From Brachybacterium vulturis (GTDB lineage Bacteria > Actinomycetota > Actinomycetes > Actinomycetales > Dermabacteraceae): 64,000 bases of DNA. Where the stretch lies: NCBI RefSeq assembly GCF_002407185.1, contig NZ_CP023563.1, positions 2,356,001 through 2,420,000 on the forward strand, read 5' to 3'. A program made the position numbers and the translations under genes. Shown in pieces: positions 7,416 through 16,236 of the stretch. The notes below the pieces were generated by a model. That model ran no database searches. It was not told the DNA's origin and worked only from the letters and a program-made list of their open reading frames with translations. Each line of letters starts with the position of its first letter. Positions within the stretch are counted from its first letter, which is position 1.

Positions 7416-7742
7416 TCAGAAGGGTCCGATCCTCACCACGGCGCCCTCGAGGTCCTCGTCCCAGGGGACCTGGCAGGTCAGCCGTGAGGTGGGCTCGCGC
7501 TCGTCCTCGGTGAGGGAATCCAGCACATCGGCCTCGTCCTCGTCGATCTCCCCGGCGGTCTCGAAGGAGACCTGGTCGAGGAAGGAGTGGCAGGTGGAGC
7601 AGGAGGCATTCCCGCCGCAGGTGGCGAGGATCGGGAAGCTGTTGCGCACGAGGCACTCCATGAGGGACTCGTCGTCCTCCCAGTCGACGTCGGAGTGCTC
7701 GGCGCCTTCGCGGTCGATGACGGTGATCATGATGGTGCTCAT
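7416..7742 (-). CDS. [2Fe-2S] ferredoxin, adrenodoxin type
   Basis: A 108-residue plant/vertebrate-type ferredoxin. The cluster ligands are visible as C-X5-C-X2-C in CGGNASCSTC and a fourth Cys in LTCQVP, the putidaredoxin/adrenodoxin spacing. The acidic surface (DEDEADVLDSLTEDE) suits docking to a reductase or a P450. The start MSTIMITVIDREG at 7742 was chosen because residues before it would be low-complexity translation of the upstream terminator. No P450 or reductase is in the window. Before the mobile element arrived, this gene lay directly downstream of glnA. Confidence 0.88.
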   Translation of the reverse strand: MSTIMITVIDREGAEHSDVDWEDDESLMECLVRNSFPILATCGGNASCSTCHSFLDQVSFETAGEIDEDEADVLDSLTEDEREPTSRLTCQVPWDEDLEGAVVRIGPF

Positions 7743-7820
7743 GCCCCTATTCCATACCCTCGAGGCGCTCAGGGCCAATCGGTTCCTTCCTGCGGCATGC
7801 CGCGCCCATCGCGCACGGAG

Positions 7821-7859
7821 AAGGCCCCAGCCCTCAGCAGCGCTGGGAGCGGGGGCCTT
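7821..7859 (-). terminator. Probable original glnA terminator, now 6.8 kb away from glnA
   Basis: AAGGCCCC pairs with GGGGCCTT around an inner CCC/GGG stem. It sits just left of the left attachment repeat and reads as the terminator that once followed glnA on the minus strand. Insertion of the element moved it away. Confidence 0.6.
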
Positions 7860-7878
7860 CGTCGACAGACGGGCCTCG

Positions 7879-7897
7879 CGGCTCAGATGTCGTAGTA
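7879..7897. repeat. Left attachment repeat (attL core, 19 bp)
   Basis: CGGCTCAGATGTCGTAGTA is identical and in the same orientation to 14635-14653, which forms the glnA 3' end. It contains a remnant of the last four glnA codons and the stop. The flanking bases differ on both sides, so the 19 bp is the maximal exact repeat. Confidence 0.88.
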
Positions 7898-7979
7898 ACG
7901 CACGGAGTGTCGCTGACCAGCACGAACAGAATCGCGTGCAACTAGCGTGCTTCACGGGGTGATGACGAGAGGACTCACG

Positions 7980-8309
7980 ATGACCGAGATGCACGACGAC
8001 GCCGCCCGTCAGATCGTCCACCAGCTCCGCGCCCGCATGTTCACCGACACCCTGTCAGGCTGCCCCGCCACCCAATCCCGCTACTTCGAGACCGCCGAAC
8101 GGCTCACCCCCGTGCTCGACGTCCAGGCCGTCCTCGGTGGGGCGGCCGACGGCGGACCACTGATCCACGTCGGCGACGTCGCTCTCACCCCTGCTGGTGC
8201 CGCGGCGCTGCGGGATCACCTCGGCGTGCTGCTGCACGTCCTTAGCGACGACGGTGACCCGGCGGCCCTGCAGGACCCTACGGCCTATGGCAATGACGCA
8301 CTCGGCTGA
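7980..8309 (+). CDS. Hypothetical protein at the left end of the element
   Basis: A 109-residue soluble protein not recognised. It contains QIVHQLRARMFTDTLSGCPA near the start and a hydrophobic helix ALRDHLGVLLHVLSDDGD near the end. It is the only element gene on the plus strand and lies just inside attL, the position where satellites and islands often carry accessory genes. The ATG at 7980 has AGAGGA about 7 nt upstream; an earlier GTG at 7947 is possible but has no good ribosome site. Confidence 0.6.
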   Translation: MTEMHDDAARQIVHQLRARMFTDTLSGCPATQSRYFETAERLTPVLDVQAVLGGAADGGPLIHVGDVALTPAGAAALRDHLGVLLHVLSDDGDPAALQDPTAYGNDALG

Positions 8310-8336
8310 CGAGAAGTCCTGCTCCGCGCTGTATAG

Positions 8337-8984
8337 TCACGCATCATTCACTTCCTCTTCGTCAAGGAAATCCTGGAATCCAGGGATATTGCTTGCATAG
8401 TCGTCCGGTATGGGGAGGTGTCGGGCGTAAGGCCGCTCTTTTGCCGGGAAACCCATTTTGGATGGAATGTAATGTTTGTCTACTGTCCGCCACTTGCCGC
8501 GCTCGGCCTTAGCGCCACGTCGAGGCAACCCTTGCCAGAGCGACCATTGCCAGACTTCGTACGATTCCGGTCCCCGCTCAAGGTCCCTTCTTGAGGCTCG
8601 ACCTACTCCCCTCGCAAGGAGCAAGCCACTGTCTAAGTATGAGAGGCCAACCTGTACTCTTTCGCCGTGGTGGACTCGCACTATGGCGGCCATCGGTTCA
8701 GAATCGGCGGTCATAGACCGGCGAATCTCGGGCCAGGGGCCGATTACGGAACCGCCCCACACTACGAACTGCACCTCATGCGCATTCTTCGGGCCCATAA
8801 TTCCAACGTTCACGAAGTAGTCAGTGTATTGCTCCGCCTCCAGGATCTCATTCTTTCCGACATACATTCCGTCAATTGGGCGCGAGGCGTATTCGCGCAT
8901 GATCTGCCAGATCACCGCAAGGAAGGCGGCGAAAGCTAGAACGAAAGAGCCACCTGAGATCCAGATGCTGAGTGAGTTCTCCAT
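8337..8984 (-). CDS. Membrane-anchored hypothetical protein, low-GC cargo gene
   Basis: A 215-residue protein with one N-terminal membrane helix (ISGGSFVLAFAAFLAVIWQI), then a soluble domain with no motif I recognise and an acidic C-terminus (DFLDEEEVNDA). Base composition is clearly more AT-rich than everything around it, and codons such as AAT and GTT that are rare in neighbouring genes are common. That points to separate acquisition as cargo within the element. The position beyond the operon terminator, near attL, fits an accessory gene such as a phage-interference or surface function, but nothing in the sequence proves one. Confidence 0.72.
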   Translation of the reverse strand: MENSLSIWISGGSFVLAFAAFLAVIWQIMREYASRPIDGMYVGKNEILEAEQYTDYFVNVGIMGPKNAHEVQFVVWGGSVIGPWPEIRRSMTADSEPMAAIVRVHHGERVQVGLSYLDSGLLLARGVGRASRRDLERGPESYEVWQWSLWQGLPRRGAKAERGKWRTVDKHYIPSKMGFPAKERPYARHLPIPDDYASNIPGFQDFLDEEEVNDA

Positions 8985-9089
8985 GTCTGGATGCTAGCTG
9001 TTCGGGGCCTGCGCCTCGGCATAAGTGTCGGGATCGAGAGATGAGATCCGACGGCGCAGTCCCTCGCTCCGATGGGCCAGGAGATAGGG

Positions 9090-9127
9090 GACGGCCCCCG
9101 GTACCGGTGATGGGATCGGGGGCCGTC
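9090..9127 (-). terminator. Terminator of the element's main operon
   Basis: A perfect 11-bp stem (GACGGCCCCCG with CGGGGGCCGTC) with a 16-nt loop lies immediately downstream of the last operon gene and separates it from the cargo gene. Confidence 0.7.
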
Positions 9128-9137
9128 CTGTGCCCTG

Positions 9138-9299
9138 TCAGGCCGCGTCGCGGATGGTCTGCTGGTACGCGGCGATCATGCCCTCCAGCTGCGCGACTCG
9201 GCCCTGGTCCGCTCCGGTCTCCAGGGCCTCGGCGTAACCGTCCTCTAGCCGTGCGAGGTCGCCCGCCCACTGCTCGCGCAGCTGCTCCAGCCGGGTCAT
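9138..9299 (-). CDS. Small coiled-coil protein
   Basis: Only 53 residues, starting MTRLEQLREQWAGDLARLED; almost entirely charged helix with heptad-like leucines. The start at 9299 is set by an ATGA overlap with the preceding gene, so it is translated as part of the element operon. Function is not recognised. Small helical proteins next to a terminase-like gene could be packaging accessories, but this is inference only. Confidence 0.55.
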   Translation of the reverse strand: MTRLEQLREQWAGDLARLEDGYAEALETGADQGRVAQLEGMIAAYQQTIRDAA

Positions 9300-9688
9300 G
9301 CCGTGCCCCCTGCAGGTCGTCCGATCAGCATTGCCAGCATGCCCTGCACCTCGGCGGTGCCGTTGCCCTGTTGCGGGTCCATCAGGCCGCGGGTGCGGGC
9401 CTCCAGCTGGTCGACCTCCAGCAGCCGCGGGACTGTCCGCACGGGGTCCTGCTCCAGCAGGGGCCACAGGTGCGCCCGGTAGGTGGCGAACCTCGACATC
9501 ATCAGGTCACGGGCTACGGTCTGCTCAGGCAGGGTCTCCTGCATGGTGGACAGGACCCGCTGCACGGTCGTCTTGGACACGCCGTGCCGCTCGGCTGCCT
9601 CCCGCTGCGTGCGGCCCTGCGCCAGGGACTCCAGGATCGCTGCGTCACGCTTCGCACGCTCGATCCGGGCCACGCTGCGCCCGGTCAC
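9296..9688 (-). CDS. HTH protein resembling a terminase small subunit
   Basis: A 130-residue protein. Residues about 5-45 form a helix-turn-helix (AAERHGVSKTTVQRVLSTM). The second half has the helical pattern RAHLWPLLEQDPVRTVPRLL followed by RTRGLMDPQ, like the region of phage small terminase proteins that ends in 'rarllGLd'. The GTG start at 9688 overlaps the previous stop (GTGA). Phage satellites often carry only the small terminase to redirect helper packaging, so this gene is central to that interpretation. A plain HTH regulator remains possible. Confidence 0.6.
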   Translation of the reverse strand: MTGRSVARIERAKRDAAILESLAQGRTQREAAERHGVSKTTVQRVLSTMQETLPEQTVARDLMMSRFATYRAHLWPLLEQDPVRTVPRLLEVDQLEARTRGLMDPQQGNGTAEVQGMLAMLIGRPAGGTA

Positions 9689-10419
9689 CGGTCCGACCCC
9701 ATGAGGTCCCTGGAGCGGTCCGCCTGCTGCGCTACCCGCTCGCGAATGCCGTCCTGTGCGGCGCGCCTCTGCGCGTCGGCGAGGGTGCGGGCTTCCTCCG
9801 GCGAGGACACCAGCCCGAACGTGCCCCGGTAGGCGGCGACGTCGTGCCGGTAGATCGCGGACTGCACCGCCCCGTCCGGCTCCTGACCGTCTGCCAGGGC
9901 CTCCAGGGCGTCGGCCCATGCCGTGGTGGCCTCCTGGTCGGCGTGGGACTCGGCGGCCTTCACGGCGTCCTCGTGCCCGAGGTCGGCGAGGCGATCGAAC
10001 ACGGCCCCGCGCAGCTCGGCCTGCACGCCCTCGGGGTCGGACGACGACAGGACCCGCTCGCTGGTCTCGGCGGCGTCCAGGATCGCGGCGAGGCGGGTCA
10101 CGTCGGCCTGCTGGATCACCTGGAGGATGTTCCTGCCCGCGTCCATCAGGGCGTCTACCTTCGCCCGCTGGTGAGCCAGCACGGCGATGCCGTCCGCCGT
10201 GGTGGGGGCCAGTGCTGCGGTGACGGCGTCGCGGGGGTCCGGTCCGTCGGGCCGCTGCGGGATCGCCTCGCGCAGCTTGGCGCGGGCTGCTGCGCGGGCC
10301 TCGGTCTGCCGCTGCCGGTTCGCCTCGGGGGTCAGGTCGGGGTCGTGCATCTTCTCGGCGGCGACCTGGTCGGCGCGGTACTGGAGGAATGCGCCCTGGA
10401 GCTGGCTGGTGTTGATCAT
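9685..10419 (-). CDS. Hypothetical helical protein of the element
   Basis: A 244-residue, almost wholly alpha-helical, alanine- and charge-rich protein beginning MINTSQLQGAFLQYRADQ. No catalytic motif, cysteine or membrane segment is seen. Repeated arginine/alanine helices (RQTEARAAARAKLREA) suggest a structural or nucleic-acid-associated protein. AAAGGA precedes the ATG by about 9 nt; the long in-frame stretch upstream is proline/arginine noise and was rejected. The gene lies between the replication genes and the TerS-like gene. I do not recognise it. Confidence 0.62.
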   Translation of the reverse strand: MINTSQLQGAFLQYRADQVAAEKMHDPDLTPEANRQRQTEARAAARAKLREAIPQRPDGPDPRDAVTAALAPTTADGIAVLAHQRAKVDALMDAGRNILQVIQQADVTRLAAILDAAETSERVLSSSDPEGVQAELRGAVFDRLADLGHEDAVKAAESHADQEATTAWADALEALADGQEPDGAVQSAIYRHDVAAYRGTFGLVSSPEEARTLADAQRRAAQDGIRERVAQQADRSRDLMGSDR

Positions 10420-10508
10420 GGTGCGTGTCCTTTCGGGACGTGGTGAGTGGTCCTGCTGGTGGTCGGTGGCGGGGCCTGGTGGTGGTGCCCGGGGCCGTGC
10501 TGCGGGGG

Positions 10509-10691
10509 TCACTGGTCGACCCCCTGGAGGTCGGCCATGTCGTGCAGCTCGTCGGCGAGGCTGCGCAGCTCGTCGCCGGGGATGAACACGCGCCCGTTCC
10601 GGCCCTGGAGCATGACGCCCGCCTCGGCGTCGACCTGGTGCCGGTTCCACAGATACGGGGTGACCCGCACGGGGCCTGCGAGGGGGCTCAT
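10509..10691 (-). CDS. Small hypothetical protein of the element
   Basis: A 60-residue protein starting MSPLAGPVRVTPYLWNRHQ, with a helix FIPGDELRSLADELHDMAD at the end that resembles short conserved phage proteins. Its ATG overlaps the stop of the ATPase gene by 4 nt (ATGA), which supports real translation. No function is assigned. Confidence 0.55.
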   Translation of the reverse strand: MSPLAGPVRVTPYLWNRHQVDAEAGVMLQGRNGRVFIPGDELRSLADELHDMADLQGVDQ

Positions 10692-11986
10692 CGGGGGGCC
10701 TCCTCGCAGGTGGGGTGGATCGGGTAGGTGGACGGCTCACCGCAGGCCGCGCAGCGGGTCGCGCCGGGAGCGGTTCCGGGTTCCGCACCCTGGGTGTGGG
10801 AACCGGGGAACCGCACAGACTCCGCCGATGTGTCAGAAACTCGTCGGTACTCCCGCAGCGCGTCAGCGGCCCGGGAGCGTCGCCACGTCATCCGCTCCTG
10901 CACGTCCCGGACCGACACCGGCTGCGGGTCCATCTGCCGCAGCGCGTCGACGTCGGCAGGGTCCGCAGCCTCGGCAGGGTTCCGCTCCCCGCCCGCAGGG
11001 GCGTGCACCCTCCAGGACGTCGCCCCGTCGACGGTGGACAGCTTGAACGTCCCCGCCACCGGCTCCTTGTCCTCGGCGGGGGAGACGGCGCGCAGACCGC
11101 CGTGCCGGTCCTTGTGGATCGTCAGCAGGGCTGCGCCGCCCCGGCCCGGGGTGAACGCCTCCAGCAGCTTCACGCGCAGGGACACACCGCCGATCGCTCG
11201 GCGCTTCGCTGCGGTGCCGGTCGCTCCCAATGCCCGGGACTCGCTGTTCTTCGCCAGGTGGTCAATCGCGATCAGGGCCGTGTCAGCCTTCGCGGCCAGC
11301 GGCTTCATCACGCGGGAGTGCACCATGGTGAAGTCGTCGGGGCTGTTGGAGCTGACACCGAACAGGGGGAGTAGTTCCCCGATGGAGTCCAGGACCGTGA
11401 CATCGGGTCGCCAGGCCACGACGTCGGCGACGACGTCCACCAGGTGCGGTGCGTCCTCCGGCTCGACGTACCGGAACCGCTGGAGGTCGGACAGTGCCCC
11501 GCCGGGTGCCCCCAGCATCAGCAGCCGCTGCACGGTGGCCTGCATGCCGTTGTGGTCAAGGTCCAGGACCAGGGCGCTGCCGCCGTCGCGCAGAGCCTCG
11601 GCGGCTGCTGCGAGCGCTACCCACGTCTTCCCGGACTCGGGATCACCGAACACGAGGTTGACCTGTCCCGTGTAGAACAGCGCGTGCCCGTCGGACCGGG
11701 CGAGGATCGCCGGTGCTGGAGGGTCCGGCATGGTGCCGTTCAGCAGCGCGGCGACATCGGCGTACAGGGGATGAGGTTCTGACACATCGGACCGGTCTGT
11801 GCGGTTCCCGGGTTCCCACATAGGGGGTCGGGAACCGGGAACCGCTGCGCTGCTCCCACCGGTTCCGGGTTCCGGGAACCGCTCGGGAACCTGGGAACTG
11901 CTGGTCAGGTCGGGGGCGGTGGCCCACTGTGCGGTCACAGCGTCCAGGGCTGCCCGGTCCTCGTCGGCCAGGTATTCGCGGCTCAT
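10688..11986 (-). CDS. RepA-like AAA ATPase, replication protein of the element
   Basis: A 432-residue protein with a RecA-fold ATPase in the middle. The Walker A is GDPESGKT, a Walker B-like VTVLDSIGELLPLFG follows, and TALIAIDHLAKNSESRALG matches the later motif of RSF1010 RepA-type hexameric helicases. The N-terminal 100 residues are proline/glycine-rich and are encoded by GGAACC-type DNA repeats; the C-terminal 70 residues include a CAAC pair and a second copy of the same DNA in inverted orientation. GGAGGAGGT lies upstream of the ATG at 11986. With the preceding DnaB-N-like protein it likely forms the replication module. A simple repair ATPase is less likely. Confidence 0.78.
   Translation of the reverse strand: MSREYLADEDRAALDAVTAQWATAPDLTSSSQVPERFPEPGTGGSSAAVPGSRPPMWEPGNRTDRSDVSEPHPLYADVAALLNGTMPDPPAPAILARSDGHALFYTGQVNLVFGDPESGKTWVALAAAAEALRDGGSALVLDLDHNGMQATVQRLLMLGAPGGALSDLQRFRYVEPEDAPHLVDVVADVVAWRPDVTVLDSIGELLPLFGVSSNSPDDFTMVHSRVMKPLAAKADTALIAIDHLAKNSESRALGATGTAAKRRAIGGVSLRVKLLEAFTPGRGGAALLTIHKDRHGGLRAVSPAEDKEPVAGTFKLSTVDGATSWRVHAPAGGERNPAEAADPADVDALRQMDPQPVSVRDVQERMTWRRSRAADALREYRRVSDTSAESVRFPGSHTQGAEPGTAPGATRCAACGEPSTYPIHPTCEEAPR
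10770..10841 (+). repeat. 72-bp imperfect inverted repeat, copy 1
   Basis: This segment matches the reverse complement of 11774-11845 at roughly four of five positions without gaps. It includes two GGTTCC and two GGAACC hexamers and a shared GATGTGTCAGAA end. Both copies are inside the ATPase gene, here at its 3' end. Confidence 0.75.
11774..11845 (-). repeat. 72-bp imperfect inverted repeat, copy 2
   Basis: Partner of 10770-10841 in opposite orientation, about 0.9 kb away, in the 5' part of the ATPase gene. It begins a denser cluster of GGAACC/GGTTCC hexamers. Confidence 0.75.
11803..11899. repeat. GGAACC/GGTTCC iteron-like cluster, candidate replication origin
   Basis: Within 97 bp there are seven exact GGAACC or GGTTCC hexamers plus one GGAACT (11803, 11811, 11831, 11838, 11861, 11868, 11875, 11886, 11894 region), many spaced 7-8 nt and forming palindromes such as GGTTCCGGGTTCCGGGAACC. 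They lie in the 5' end of the replication ATPase gene, as phage origins sometimes do. Origin function is inference. Confidence 0.5.
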
Positions 11987-12570
11987 CGTGGTGCCACCTC
12001 CTCCCCGGTGAGACGGCGGGCGGCGTCCTCCAGGGCGCGGCCCTGGTCGACCAGCACCACGGCCAGCTCGTCGGCGGCACACTCGTCCACGGCCTGCTGC
12101 ACGCGCTGCGCGTACTCCTCGGCGCGGCGGCGCACGGTCGCCTCGATCAGTGCCGGGATCATGCACAGCCCGCCCGCAGCCATGGGGGACCCGTCGACGC
12201 CGTGCAGATCGAACACCAGGGCGTCGAACCGGTGCCGGTCCTGGGGGCGGATGAACGCACGGTCCTGCGCGTGCTGCCCCAGCGTCATCGGCTCGACCCG
12301 GTCACCGCTCATCAGGACGGCGTGTGCGGCCCGTACAGCGACGCGCAGCGGGGCACTGGTGAAGTCGCCCGCTGTGATCCTGCGGAACGCCTGACGGGCC
12401 TCCTGCGGGATCGTGTGCAGGATCGCCCCGGCCACTGCGACCTCGACTCGCGGGAGGGTGCTCAGGTCGACGCTGACGGGGATGGGGACGATAGACTCAG
12501 GGGTGCGTGTTCGGTCGTTCTGGGCCGCCCCGGTTGCCTGACCGGGGCGGCTTTCTGTTGCGGTGGTCAC
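11983..12570 (-). CDS. DnaB N-terminal-like protein of the element
   Basis: A 195-residue helical protein. The segment VAGAILHTIPQEARQAFRRI followed by an ITAGDF turn and AVRAAHAVLMSGDRVEPMT has the layout of the N-terminal domain of DnaB helicases, without a helicase domain. It ends by overlapping the ATPase start (ATGA), so the two may act together as a split helicase or loader. The start is GTG 12570, overlapping the excisionase stop (GTGA). The domain call is by pattern only. Confidence 0.58.
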   Translation of the reverse strand: MTTATESRPGQATGAAQNDRTRTPESIVPIPVSVDLSTLPRVEVAVAGAILHTIPQEARQAFRRITAGDFTSAPLRVAVRAAHAVLMSGDRVEPMTLGQHAQDRAFIRPQDRHRFDALVFDLHGVDGSPMAAGGLCMIPALIEATVRRRAEEYAQRVQQAVDECAADELAVVLVDQGRALEDAARRLTGEEVAPR

Positions 12571-12767
12571 CGGTGATCACCCGCCGTGGGGATCGGGGTC
12601 AGCAGGGCGTCCAGCTCGGCCCGGTCGACGCGGATCGCGCGTGCTCCGAGGCGGTACCCGGTGAGGTCCCCCCGTGCAATGAGGTTGCGGATCGTGCGGT
12701 CGGTGACGTTCAGGTACTCAGCCGCTGTGGACTGCGTGACGTACCGGCCTGTCAGGGTGTCAGGCAT
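12567..12767 (-). CDS. xis: Excisionase / MerR-like HTH protein
   Basis: A 66-residue protein with the classic excisionase pattern: a helix-turn-helix STAAEYLNVTDRTIRNLIAR followed by the wing GDLTGYRLGARAIRVDRAEL. These small proteins bind attachment-site DNA and steer integrase toward excision, and often also act as repressors. It is the first gene of the replication operon, with GGGAGC before its ATG, and lies about 0.6 kb from the integrase. Assignment to excision rather than pure regulation is inference. Confidence 0.8.
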   Translation of the reverse strand: MPDTLTGRYVTQSTAAEYLNVTDRTIRNLIARGDLTGYRLGARAIRVDRAELDALLTPIPTAGDHR

Positions 12768-12898
12768 GAGAAAAGCTCCCGAGTGATCAGCGCATGCTGC
12801 GCTATGTCACCGGGAGCTGCTACGCCTGCGCGCCGCCGTTCCACCTGCTGGTGGCCCTGTACTGGTGGCGACCGTGCTCGCCGAACGTTGGAGCATTC

Positions 12899-12904
12899 AC
12901 GCTA
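12899..12904 (-). promoter_or_regulatory. Possible -10 of the xis-replication operon
   Basis: TAGCGT on the minus strand lies about 130 nt before xis. The 12768-12921 gap holds no gene and is the natural place for the operon promoter. No convincing -35 was found. Confidence 0.35.
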
Positions 12905-12921
12905 GCACGCGTCGGTTCCGG

Positions 12922-13338
12922 TCAGTGCCAGGCGACGCGCACTGTCCCCGGGTCTGTGATGCCCTGCACTGCCAACTCGACCCGGCGCTTCTCCCACGTG
13001 ACCAGGGCCGTCAGCATCGGCCCCAGTGCCTCGCGGCCTGCCCGCAGCGTTGCTGTACTGCACTCGGCGCACTGCACCGTGACCGTGACGTGCCCGTCCG
13101 TGTCCACGCCGGGACCGGCCACGCTGTCGCGGCCCCCGGTGAGCGTCCAGCCGTCCCCGGTCCGCTTAAACCGCAGCGCGGCCCCGGTGTCGTGCCGCTG
13201 CGTCCGGCGCTCGCGGCCCTTGCACGTGAGCCGGATCAACGGCGACCGCCCCGTGTCTCCGCACAGCCGGTCCAGGAGGTCCGGCACGCCCGGCTCAGCT
13301 GCCAGCGCTGCCGTCATCATCTGCTGCATGCTGCTCAT
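12922..13338 (-). CDS. Hypothetical protein between integrase and excisionase
   Basis: A 138-residue protein starting MSSMQQMMTAALAAEPGVPD. Three to four cysteines (LTCKG and QCAEC) could bind a metal, with beta-rich sequence between them (ALRFKRTGDGWTLTGG). The ATG at 13338 overlaps the integrase stop by 4 nt, so it is co-translated with int. I do not recognise it. The position suggests a recombination or copy-control accessory, but this is context only. Confidence 0.62.
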   Translation of the reverse strand: MSSMQQMMTAALAAEPGVPDLLDRLCGDTGRSPLIRLTCKGRERRTQRHDTGAALRFKRTGDGWTLTGGRDSVAGPGVDTDGHVTVTVQCAECSTATLRAGREALGPMLTALVTWEKRRVELAVQGITDPGTVRVAWH

Positions 13339-14495
13339 CGGTCATCGCCTCCGGCCGTCTCGCTGCTGGTCGTCTCATCGCTCGTGCTCACCGTGGCGAG
13401 CGCTGCCCCCAGGGCGTCCGCGATGGAGCGGTCACGCTCCCTGACGGCGTGCTGATAGCCCATCGCGATGGTGGGGGAGGTGTGCCCCAGGCGGGACATC
13501 AGCTCCCGCGTAGTCGCCCCCGTCGCGGCTGCAAGCGTCGCCCCGGTGTGGCGCAGGTCGTGCGGCTTCACGTCGTGCAGCTCCGCAGCCTCGGCAGCAC
13601 GCCGGAACATGTATAGGTAGCCGGTGTAGGACAGCGGCTGCGCCGGGTCACGCGGCGAGGGGAACAGGTGCCCCATCGGCCCATCGGTCGCATGGTCGCG
13701 CAGCTGTGCCAGCACCTGCTCGTGCAGCTCGGCGGGGTAGTGGACCGTGCGGACGCTCGATGACGTCTTGACGGGGCCGATGCGCGCTGATCCGGCATGC
13801 ACAGCGGACGCTGTCTCTCGGACGTTCAGGGCGTGCGCTCTGGTGTCGACGTCACGGCGGCGCAGCCCGAGGACTTCCCCGGGGCGCAGCGCGCAGTACG
13901 CGGCCAGCAGGATCGCCAGCTGCCGCCCCTCGGGGGCCTTCCCGGCGAGGGCGGACACGTCGGCGACGGTGAGCGCGTGACCCTCGCGCTTGCGCTCGTA
14001 CTGGCCTGCCCCGCGCACCCTGACGGGGGACTCGGCGACGATCCCGTCATCGGCTGCTGCACGGAACAGCTGGGCCAGGACTCGGTACGCGTTGGCGCGG
14101 GCGGCGGGCTTGTCGGCGGGGAAGATGGACAGCCACTTGCGGACCATCGCGGGGGTGACGTCGACCATCGGCGTCGTGCCGAACGTGGGGACGATCCATC
14201 GGTCGATCTGCACGCCGTAGTGGTAGCGGGTCCGCTCGCGCACCTGGTGCGTCGGCAGCCACTGCTGCGCGTACTCGCCCACGGTGACCCGGTCGTCGCG
14301 GCCCCGCCATGATCCGGTCTCCAGGGCGGCGCGTTGCACGGACAGCCACGCGTCGGCGTCGATCTTGGCGGTGAACGTCGACGGGGCGGCGCGGCGCTGC
14401 CCTGCGGGGTCCAGGTAGCTCGCCTGGTATCTCCCGCTGGGGAGCTTCCGCACCGCCCCGAAGGATCGGCGGGTCCGTCGTCGCTTCGCTGCCAT
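13335..14495 (-). CDS. int: Tyrosine-type site-specific integrase
   Basis: A 386-residue phage-type integrase. An AP2-like arm-binding domain lies at the N-terminus (GRYQASYLDPAGQRR), a SAM-like core-binding domain around YAQQWLPTHQVRERTRYHYG, and a catalytic domain with LRPGEVLGL (first Arg), HDLRHTG (His-X-X-Arg), LGHTS and the nucleophile Tyr in MGYQHA. AGGAGG precedes the ATG at 14495. It ends 140 bp from the glnA-side repeat, so it most likely integrates the element into the glnA 3' end. All catalytic residues are present, so it should be active. Confidence 0.93.
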   Translation of the reverse strand: MAAKRRRTRRSFGAVRKLPSGRYQASYLDPAGQRRAAPSTFTAKIDADAWLSVQRAALETGSWRGRDDRVTVGEYAQQWLPTHQVRERTRYHYGVQIDRWIVPTFGTTPMVDVTPAMVRKWLSIFPADKPAARANAYRVLAQLFRAAADDGIVAESPVRVRGAGQYERKREGHALTVADVSALAGKAPEGRQLAILLAAYCALRPGEVLGLRRRDVDTRAHALNVRETASAVHAGSARIGPVKTSSSVRTVHYPAELHEQVLAQLRDHATDGPMGHLFPSPRDPAQPLSYTGYLYMFRRAAEAAELHDVKPHDLRHTGATLAAATGATTRELMSRLGHTSPTIAMGYQHAVRERDRSIADALGAALATVSTSDETTSSETAGGDDR

Positions 14496-14541
14496 GGGGC
14501 TGCCTCCTGCTCGTGCAATAACCGTGCGATACACCGAGGCT

Positions 14542-14560
14542 ACTCGGTTCCACTCGGTTC
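14542..14560. repeat. Tandem 9-bp repeat, possible integrase arm sites
   Basis: ACTCGGTTC occurs twice with a 10-bp period between the integrase start and the right attachment core. Spacing of one helical turn fits arm-type binding by integrase. Confidence 0.4.
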
Positions 14561-14634
14561 TGTTGCACGACGGTGCTACTGTGCAGGCAGCACCCCGGAA
14601 ACAGGCAGGTCAGCGAAGCATTCCCAGGCCCCTA

Positions 14635-14653
14635 CGGCTCAGATGTCGTAGTA
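14635..14653. repeat. Right attachment repeat (attR core) in the glnA 3' end
   Basis: The 19-bp core matches 7879-7897 exactly. It supplies the last four codons (Tyr-Tyr-Asp-Ile) and the stop of glnA, so insertion leaves the protein unchanged. Confidence 0.88.
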
Positions 14654-16069
14654 GAGCTCGAACTCGTGCGGGTGCGGGCGGAAGCGGAACGGGTCGATCT
14701 CCGTGGTGCGCTTCAGCTCGATCCAGGTCGAGATCATGTCCTCGGGGAACACATCGCCCTCGGTGAGGAAGTCGTGATCCGCCTCGAGGGCGTCCAGTGC
14801 GGCTCCCAGGGACTCGGGCAGCTGCTTGATCGCCTTGTGCTCCTCCGGCGGCAGCTCGTACAGGTCCTTGTCGATCGGCTCGGGCGGCTCGATCCGGTTG
14901 CGGATGCCGTCGATACCGGCCATCAGCTGCGCGGCGAAGGCCAGATACGGGTTCGCCGAGGGGTCCGGTGCACGGAACTCCACGCGCTTGGCCTTCGCAG
15001 AGGCACCGGTGACCGGGATGCGGATCGCGGCCGAGCGGTTGCGGGCCGAGTAGACCATGTTCACCGGGGCCTCGAAGCCGGGCACCAGTCGCTTGAAGGA
15101 GTTCACCGTGGGGTTGGTGAAGGCCGTCAGGGAGGGGGAGTGCTCGATGATCCCGCCGATGTACCAGCGGGCGATGTCGGAGAGGCCGCCGTAGCCGCGC
15201 TCGTCGAAGAACAGCGGCTCGCCGTCCTTCCACAGCGACTGGTGGGTGTGCATCCCCGAGCCGTTGTCGCCGAACAGGGGCTTGGGCATGAAGGTCGCGG
15301 TCTTGCCCGCGTCCCAGACGGTGTTCTTCACGACGTACTTGAACTTCATGACGTCGTCGGCCGCCTGCAGCAGCGTGTTGAAGCGGTAGTTGATCTCCTG
15401 CTGGCCCGCCGTGCCGACCTCGTGGTGAGCGCGCTCGACCTGCAGGCCGGTCTCTTCCAGCACGGCGCAGATCTCGTCACGCAGATCCGCCATCTGGTCG
15501 TTGGGCGGCACCGGGAAGTACCCGCCCTTCAGGCGCGTCTTGTACCCCTGATTGCCACCGAACTCGGACTCGTCACGGTCGGTGTTCCACACCGCCTCGT
15601 CGGAGTCGATGCTGTAGAAACCGGAGTTCACGCCGGTCTTGAAGCGGACGTCGTCGAAGATGTAGAACTCGGCCTCGGCGGCGAAGAGCGCGGTGTCCGC
15701 GATCCCGGTGGACTTCAGGTACTCCTCGGCCTTGCTCGCGACGGTGCGGGGGTCCCGGGAGTAGGGCTCGTCCGTGAACGGGTCCACGATGGAGAAGTTC
15801 ATGATGAGCGTCTTGCGCTCGCGGAACGGGTCCAGGTAGGCCGTCTCCAGATCCGGGATCAGCTTCATGTCGGACTCGTGGATCGCCTGGAACCCGCGGA
15901 TCGAGGAACCGTCGAAGAGCTGGCCGGTGGCGATCGCCTCTTCATCGAAGGTGCTCGCGGGGATGTTGAAGTGCTGCATCACGCCGGGAAGATCGCAGAA
16001 CCGGATGTCGATGAACTCGACGTCCTCCTCCTCGATGTACTTCACGACCTCGCTGGGACTGTTGAACAC
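14639..16069 (-). CDS. glnA: Glutamine synthetase type I
   Basis: A 476-residue GS-I enzyme making glutamine from glutamate, ammonia and ATP. Visible signatures include the N-terminal [26 protein letters not shown], the metal/ATP segment [12 protein letters not shown], and NRSAAIRIP. The Tyr in DKDLYELP is the adenylylation site of the beta subtype, so activity is likely controlled by GlnE. I chose GTG 16069 because GGAGGAG lies just upstream and the length matches the family; the open frame further upstream lacks homology. The 3' end is the attachment site of the adjacent element. RDD, DUF4191 and lipA next door match the mycobacterial glnA1 locus. Confidence 0.96.
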
Positions 16070-16175
16070 ATCTCCTCCATCCGCGCCGTTCGGCGCGTGT
16101 TGTGCTGTCGGACCCCGAGGGGCATCACCTGGCGAGCTCCGGCGACCCGCGTGGGGCCCGAACTCGGGTGCCCCC

Positions 16176-16181
16176 AGCTTA
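16176..16181 (-). promoter_or_regulatory. Possible -10 of glnA
   Basis: TAAGCT on the minus strand would give a leader of about 100 nt before the GTG. The -35 is unclear, and a nitrogen-control site was not identified. Confidence 0.35.
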
Positions 16182-16236
16182 GGCGCTGTGGCGCGCGGCA
16201 CCTCCGCGAGCGCACCGGACGTCCAGGTGCGGGAAC

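Follow-up and report, generated by a model that had tools for sequence, protein, structure and literature searches.

What kind of element separates glnA from the neighbouring ferredoxin gene in Brachybacterium vulturis? We analysed a window of 64,000 nucleotides (contig NZ_CP023563.1, positions 2,356,001 to 2,420,000), in which a preliminary description, made from the sequence alone, had proposed an integrated element at the 3′ end of glnA resembling a minimal phage satellite. The window belongs to a 3.80-Mb, single-contig genome (G000 in our set) of the genus Brachybacterium (Dermabacteraceae). The comparisons reported below indicate that the element is very probably a phage satellite of Brachybacterium that encodes a terminase small subunit (TerS), and that the surprise lies in a constant gene, orf244, which stands beside changing TerS genes across elements with little else in common, rather than in the glnA site.

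Insertion of the element at the 3′ end of glnA

Two identical copies of a 19-bp core, CGGCTCAGATGTCGTAGTA, lie at positions 7879-7897 and 14635-14653, with an element of 6,756 bp between them, and no third copy occurs on either strand of the window when up to two mismatches are allowed. The repeats and the flanking host genes are:

7879..7897, no strand: attachment core, distal copy; exact 19 bp, the orphan copy facing the ferredoxin gene
14635..14653, no strand: attachment core, glnA-proximal copy; overlaps the stop and last codons of glnA
14639..16201, minus strand: host flank glnA, the 3′ end of which is the integration target
7416..7742, minus strand: host flank ferredoxin gene, directly 3′ of glnA in five empty sites

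The host flanks, joined by a script, matched empty glnA-ferredoxin junctions in five sister Brachybacterium genomes (G033, G011, G037, G002 and G019), with unbroken alignments over 1,029-1,033 of 1,144 nt at 81-87% identity and with 7-40 gap positions; the evidence for the empty sites consists of these BLAST rows, and two of the loci (L037 and L055) are in reverse orientation in the printed multiple alignment. Because the joined flanks align across the five empty sites, we conclude that the element was inserted, as the preliminary description had supposed and as its suggested search for an empty junction in relatives now bears out, and the comparison with the sister-genome junctions excludes a chance pair of repeats. 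The glnA-ferredoxin junction without the element is taken as the ancestral state.

Among the 38 genomes of the genus, 37 contain glnA, and 30 glnA loci were examined. An integrase of the same family as that of the window element lies directly behind glnA in 4 of the 30 (G000, G009 with 85% identity, G022 with 74%, and G020 with 71%, truncated), and a ferredoxin gene lies no more than 1.5 kb downstream of glnA in 6 (no more than about 200 nt in 5 of those 6). Neither gene was seen in 20 loci, and one of these runs into the end of its contig. G006 (72%) and G033 (63%) have related integrases on contigs other than the glnA contig. B. squillarum M-6-3 (G009) carries a related 6.47-kb element (L021) with its own repeat pair at the same glnA place, and further relatives of the window element use the ends of tRNA-Met and tRNA-Val genes. 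The site had been regarded as unusual, a view that does not stand: the integrase family occupies glnA in four of the 30 loci, and the phage-inducible chromosomal minimalist islands (PICMIs) of Vibrio lie downstream of another protein gene, fis (PMC10803314).

Three observations concern the surroundings of this site. The element at glnA in G022 (L062) carries other cargo, which means that the integrase and the glnA site serve differing element types. In G020 (L065, ~8.0-9.9 kb), a shortened integrase at glnA beside a gene that by eye is transposase-like represents a remnant of the same kind of insertion. A GC-rich hairpin, recognised by eye at 7820-7860 beside the distal attachment copy, is likely the original glnA terminator, now parted from glnA by the element.

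Gene content

From the glnA side, the genes from integrase to cargo gene follow one another on the minus strand, and a last gene, orf115, lies on the plus strand at the distal end:

13335..14495, minus strand: tyrosine integrase, 386 aa; PF00589 at 64.2 bits (cut-off 27.1), phrog_1 at E 1.2e-60; 85% identical in B. squillarum
12922..13338, minus strand: orf138, unassigned; 83% identical in L021, kept with the integrase; no significant family
12567..12767, minus strand: excisionase/AlpA-like HTH_17 protein; TIGR01764 at 49.3 bits (cut-off 28.8), PF12728 at 40.5 bits, above cut-off
11983..12570, minus strand: DnaB-N-like replication gene (weak); PF00772 at E 0.05, below cut-off; 48% identical homologue in L021
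10688..11986, minus strand: RepA-like ATPase of the AAA_25/RecA fold; PF13481 at E 1.8e-5, below cut-off; RecA chains matched
10509..10691, minus strand: orf60, small conserved protein; 56-63% in L021 and L087
9685..10419, minus strand: orf244, 244 aa, all-helical, the partner of TerS; 10 loci; predicted model with a mean local confidence score (pLDDT) of 90
9296..9688, minus strand: terminase small subunit (TerS, P0008); GTG start overlaps the orf244 stop
9138..9299, minus strand: orf53, next after terS; 72% in L087
8337..8984, minus strand: cargo gene, 215 aa; N-terminus with a hydrophobic stretch, as seen by eye; no family
7962..8309, plus strand: orf115, distal end; 76% in L087, where it is likewise distal and opposed to the core genes

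Ten of the 11 element proteins were scanned against Pfam, PHROGs and NCBIfam, and orf60 against PHROGs and PADLOC only. The tyrosine integrase and the excisionase of the preliminary description were recovered well above their cut-offs. Its DnaB-N and RepA pair was recovered in part: the RepA-like protein is an ATPase of the AAA_25/RecA fold, with its Pfam matches below cut-off, and is similar to phage proteins of the primase/helicase type in their ATPase regions (E 2e-19 to 3e-10, 27-35% identity), whereas the DnaB-N assignment is weak by itself. Neither virion nor conjugation genes had been seen, and this agrees with the scans, in which no capsid, portal, tail or large terminase family was found among the ten proteins or, in PHROGs, for orf60, and no relaxase, TraB-type or other transfer family was found among the ten proteins in Pfam and NCBIfam (orf60 lying outside the Pfam scan). 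No divergent repressor/activator pair was seen either; the sole gene opposed to the others, orf115, matches no family. PADLOC returned no significant family for the element proteins (weak matches to Cas2c, E 0.016, and mad8, E 0.007). Five genes had been overlooked (orf138, orf60, orf244, orf53 and orf115), and of these orf244 proved the most informative.

Identification of the terminase small subunit

The protein P0008 matches phrog_645 with E 4.3e-7 in the protein scan and 1.1e-6 in the genome search. A profile built from its close relatives finds a match in 11 of the 38 genus genomes. In five of them the match is nearly full-length with E <1e-11 (G002, G000, G009, and prophages of G025, 6e-13, and G006, 5e-12), and in the other six it covers the helix-turn-helix (HTH) part only, with E >1e-4. 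The relative in G025 lies upstream of a terminase large subunit (TerL; PF03237, phrog_2 at E 1e-40) with an SPP1-type portal behind it, and the relative in the G006 prophage lies upstream of a TerL that is 81% identical to that of G025, with a portal recognised by eye. Compared with the window protein, the G025 prophage protein is 31% and the G006 one 34% identical. As a screen of the genus phrog_645 is unspecific, since 37 of 38 genomes match it, mostly in the HTH part; its best five matches are the two prophage proteins and three satellite TerS, and these extend from about positions 9-20 to 127-131 of 196.

Relatives in sister elements lead to the same gene position in phages. The TerS of L071 is 49% identical to gene 1 of the Microbacterium phages DelaGarza and Lesiram and 38% identical to the annotated terminase small subunit of Arthrobacter phage Altadena. 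That of L106 is 51-54% identical to gene 1 of Appavirus-type phages; it matched 58 records, and among the best 10 of these 58 the annotation is ‘terminase small subunit’ in seven and ‘Rnase E’ in one. According to the annotated neighbours in Altadena, DelaGarza, Gingerbug and Blett, gene 1 is followed by 0 to 6 small genes and then by terminase and portal. The identification of the window protein as a putative TerS rests on the prophage homologues that precede TerL and on the sister-element relatives of phage TerS; with this comparison the TerS-like gene of the preliminary description, weak when taken alone, holds up.

Small terminases combine an HTH with oligomerisation helices in the centre. 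The structure predicted for P0008 matches many regulators; the prediction is compatible with TerS and is not decisive, and a search of PDB sequences with the TerS profile returned HTH regulators. In a viral collection the TerS found one partial match at 35% (L070), which was set aside as irrelevant, and the window integrase found none. The PHROG phrog_645 itself is named ‘Rnase E’ and includes phage genes that are annotated as terminase small subunit and lie upstream of the terminase large subunit; because of these annotations and this position, the label looks wrong.

Association of orf244 with TerS

The orf244 and terS genes overlap by four bases (GTGA). An orf244 profile matched 3 of 297 genomes of the order, 3 of 394 genomes of the class (one weakly) and 6 of 299 genomes of the family of G215 (one weakly), in samples that overlap; further copies were found on one IMG/VR contig (L071) and, by tblastn, in G002. 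Leaving out the weak matches in G507 (E 1.6e-4) and G946 (E 6.9e-5), we inspected 10 loci: the window, L021, L087, L088, L071, L105, L106, L107, L108 and L109. A phrog_645-type TerS adjoins orf244 in 5 of the 10 (window, L021, L087, L088 and L106), and in one more (L071) TerS lies two small genes away. The neighbour is another HTH protein in two loci, L107, where its matches are weak (phrog_5536 at E 0.0013, phrog_645 at E 0.006), and L108, where it matches phrog_5536 with E 7e-20 and is similar to a phage gene (gene 1 of Vondra and of TinyDot) that directly precedes the terminase.

Searched by tblastn as a single sequence (E up to 0.01), which can miss distant relatives, the window orf244 matched none of 50,697 phage and 72,556 plasmid records, and its best PHROG match has E 0.048. 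In the protein-database lists, contigs of 8,094, 7,050, 4,135, 4,042 and 3,303 bases are given as the longest contig both for TerS and for orf244 relatives. The recurrence of these five lengths suggests that the relatives of the two proteins lie on the same database contigs, and several database contigs with TerS or orf244 measure 7-9 kb.

Exchange of modules among related elements

The delimited elements differ in size, site and repeat:

Window element: 6,756 bp, at glnA, 19-bp repeat
L021: 6,466 bp, at glnA, own repeat pair
L087 (G002): 8,137 bp, at a tRNA-Met end, 35-bp repeat
L088: 5,690 bp, at a tRNA-Val end, 27-bp repeat
L105: 10,270 bp, 47-bp repeat

Comparison of the window element with L021 shows an integrase with 85%, an excisionase with 92% and a TerS with 54% identity, and a different rep gene. 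The opposite combination is found in L087, where TerS is 87% identical and orf53 and orf115 are common to both elements, and where the integrase and the rep gene differ. The compact orf244 core is found again in other genomes in combination with different integrases, target sites and rep genes, and where inspected its frames are open.

Two of the stretches with orf244 and a TerS-like gene also hold a tape-measure protein (L071:5264-7417, 717 aa; L108:6161-7894, 577 aa), and the G025 prophage encodes a 1,239-aa protein that by eye resembles a tape measure. The L071 and L108 genes may possibly provide a satellite-specific tail length. Such genes have a precedent, because a Vibrio satellite has been shown to build chimeric tails with a tape-measure protein of its own, and putative tape-measure genes are shown in other satellites (PMC12987554). 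At L106 and L107 (G900:C2, ~474-488 kb), two modules of orf244 with an HTH or TerS gene are separated by ~13 kb that contain, judged by eye, genes resembling a serine recombinase and a primase; the arrangement looks like a composite of two satellites.

We also considered whether the five element sizes (6.756, 6.466, 8.137, 5.690 and 10.270 kb) could be whole fractions of one packaged length, with a common multiple near 39.7 kb. The fit was rejected as too weak to serve as evidence: random sets did equally well in 4.1% of cases when the target was free (36-46 kb) and in 0.4% when it was fixed at 39.4 kb, a value picked afterwards from Microbacterium phage sizes.

Replication region and other features

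A long inverted repeat lies inside the rep gene:

10769..10845: inverted-repeat arm 1, with GGAACC iteron-like repeats inside the rep gene
11770..11846: inverted-repeat arm 2, 77 nt, 82% complementary; the iteron-like cluster continues to ~11891

The motif GGGAACC or its complement occurs 13 times in the 64 kb, and 8 of the 13 copies form two clusters, one towards either end of the rep gene (10798-10812 and 11803-11891) and both within or immediately next to the 77-nt arms. These iteron-like repeats are a candidate origin that the Rep protein may bind. Another candidate origin within a rep gene is seen in L105 (3083-3172), where five copies of AGCGACCA occur within ~100 bp inside a replication-initiator-like gene.

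The cargo gene has three relatives among database proteins, of which one (99%, without source) is apparently the window's own and another lies on an 8.6-kb contig. A scan for promoters and terminators, which was not used further, gave one promoter-like site (0.4 expected) and four terminator-like sites (1.2 expected).

Alternative explanations

Several results weigh against a TerS-encoding satellite. The match of the window TerS to phrog_645 (E 1.1e-6) is barely above the next, partial hit in the genome (E 1.6e-6). Its next-best PHROG matches are HTH regulators, the best PHROG named plainly as terminase small subunit has E 0.013, tblastn (E up to 0.01) gave no match to it in phage records, and Foldseek gave no match to its model at E <0.001. 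The excisionase also matches a terminase-small-subunit PHROG weakly (phrog_57, E 3.7e-4), which we take as a shared HTH and which means that HTH hits are unspecific. For orf244, a fold search of PDB and viral models gave nothing at E <0.001, with middling helical matches at a second look, so that no conclusion on a new fold follows. In the stretches read, no TerS was seen at 2 of the 10 orf244 loci (L105 and L109) and no integrase at 3 (L107, L108 and L109), an integrase being present at 7, and one locus (L071) lies in a contig that IMG/VR calls viral. Over the 11 kb read, neither TerS nor orf244 is present in the glnA element of G022, which has the 74% identical integrase, and the window element has no recognised capsid-size gene. 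Finally, the host genome has no terminase large subunit by phrog_2 (11 of 14 control genomes were positive) and no relative of the G025 TerL, which 3 of the 38 genus genomes match. With no resident helper found, a helper would need to enter from elsewhere or belong to a different type.

Genes for a phage-type integrase, an excisionase, a Rep protein and TerS all occur in prophages, and a decayed prophage that kept integration, replication and terS after losing its virion genes would fit both the related TerS in two prophages of the genus and the orf244 loci at which TerS or integrase is missing. We nevertheless consider decay unlikely, as the compact core recurs in an open state across genomes with differing integrases, rep genes and sites, and as the window orf244 is unmatched in phage records. 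The integrase, the excisionase and the Rep module, with its iteron-like repeats, would equally suit a plasmid, and P0008, with its HTH, its model that matches many regulators and its regulators as second-best PHROG matches, might be a transcription regulator instead of TerS. The element would then be an integrative plasmid or a mobilisable element conjugating in trans, for which pSAM2 or the actinomycete integrative and mobilizable elements (AIMEs) are the model. This is quite improbable in view of the lack of any transfer or relaxase family in the ten proteins scanned, the absence of an orf244 match among the 72,556 plasmids, and the similarity of P0008, over its full length, to proteins in the TerS position of phages, together with that of its sister-element counterparts to annotated TerS.

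Interference genes are common among satellites, and a helper could be upset by free TerS, so that orf244 and TerS might poison phage packaging as the defence of a domesticated, immobile island. However, integrase and excisionase are open frames, both attachment copies are present, sister species have related elements with differing gene content, and no PADLOC family is significant; we regard such an island as very improbable. A compact phage satellite with its own TerS, in line with the preliminary description, therefore remains the best reading of the locus.

Proposed cycle and comparison with known satellites

For this TerS-encoding satellite we infer a cycle that would begin with infection by a helper phage or induction of one. 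The element would be cut out in circular form by integrase and excisionase, leaving glnA with its native 3′ junction, and would be replicated by the Rep module, probably into concatemers, from the iterons that its rep gene contains. The TerS of the element would direct the large terminase of the helper onto satellite DNA, and orf244, encoded in the same overlapping string of genes, may work in the same step of packaging or assembly. The DNA would then be carried in helper particles and re-integrate at glnA of the next cell. No cos or pac site was recognised, and between the element and candidate prophage stretches there are only short DNA matches (E 0.003-0.009).

Phage satellites in general are integrated elements that have recombination and replication genes but lack a full virion set, as is the case for the window element, and that travel in helper phage particles. 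The master regulators of phage-inducible chromosomal islands (PICIs) are divergently transcribed (stl with xis/alpA), and PICIs are induced by phages and interfere with them. The window element differs from PICIs in having no visible divergent repressor/activator pair, recognised interference gene or capsid-size gene, in its gene order (int-xis-rep-orf244-TerS) and in a TerS of actinophage lineage (phrog_645); to our knowledge orf244 has no counterpart in PICIs, which were not searched by name. It resembles PICIs, including the Staphylococcus aureus pathogenicity islands (SaPIs), in being an integrated island without virion genes that has an integrase, an excisionase, a replication module, a TerS homologue (which some PICIs carry) and a specific attachment site, and in a gene without a match in phage records, orf244, which is a likely candidate for an exclusive gene (PMC6092414). 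The earlier comparison with PICIs thus stands for the specific site and the TerS homologue, and not for membership of the PICIs proper, given the missing regulator pair.

The PICMIs are similar in size (6.1 kb vs. 6.8 kb here) and direct repeats (17 vs. 19 bp), in adjoining a conserved protein gene, in minimal content without capsid genes, and in combining an integrase with AlpA/HTH_17, which corresponds to PF00589 and PF12728 above cut-off in the window (PMC10803314). They differ in their target, fis rather than glnA, and in requiring AlpA and a DUF3987/DUF5906 primase, where the window element has an AAA_25-type ATPase (PMC10803314); neither DUF is among the five Pfam rows for the window Rep protein, and the word ‘terminase’ is absent from the main text of that paper. 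The Streptomyces satellites Mulch and Flayer and the capsid-forming PICIs (cf-PICIs) also have their own small terminase, and the former are likewise actinobacterial, but they encode a large terminase, portal and capsid, none of which was recognised in the window element (PMC10690885). Candidate PICIs of Mycobacterium are proposed actinobacterial satellites with integrases, but are defined by an integrase plus a major capsid gene, and no such capsid gene was recognised here (PMC10654092). A survey of actinobacterial prophages, in the part available, goes no further than the supposition that small elements could be satellites (PMC10023795). The open-licence literature (preprints excluded) gave, among the matches listed, no account of such an element or of any Brachybacterium satellite, an absence that is not proof. 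We read the orf244/TerS elements as an undescribed group of actinobacterial TerS-carrying satellites, distinct from typical PICIs, PICMIs and capsid-forming satellites.

On a broader proposal our judgement is evenly balanced: orf244 may be the hallmark of an undescribed satellite family in the Dermabacteraceae and the family of G215, in which a constant morphogenesis protein is combined with interchangeable TerS cassettes from different phage lineages, so that a TerS swap changes the helper. Integrases, sites and replication modules would be freely exchanged, some members would add a tape-measure gene, and concatemers of the elements may be what is packaged, the unit length being close to a whole fraction of a 39-40-kb helper. 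The Mycobacterium rule of an integrase plus a capsid gene would miss such capsid-less elements (PMC10654092), for which orf244 is a searchable marker. With a constant orf244 beside TerS of different phage lineages, the choice of helper becomes directly testable, and if orf244 acts on the capsid or the terminase, it would be a new kind of hijacking protein.

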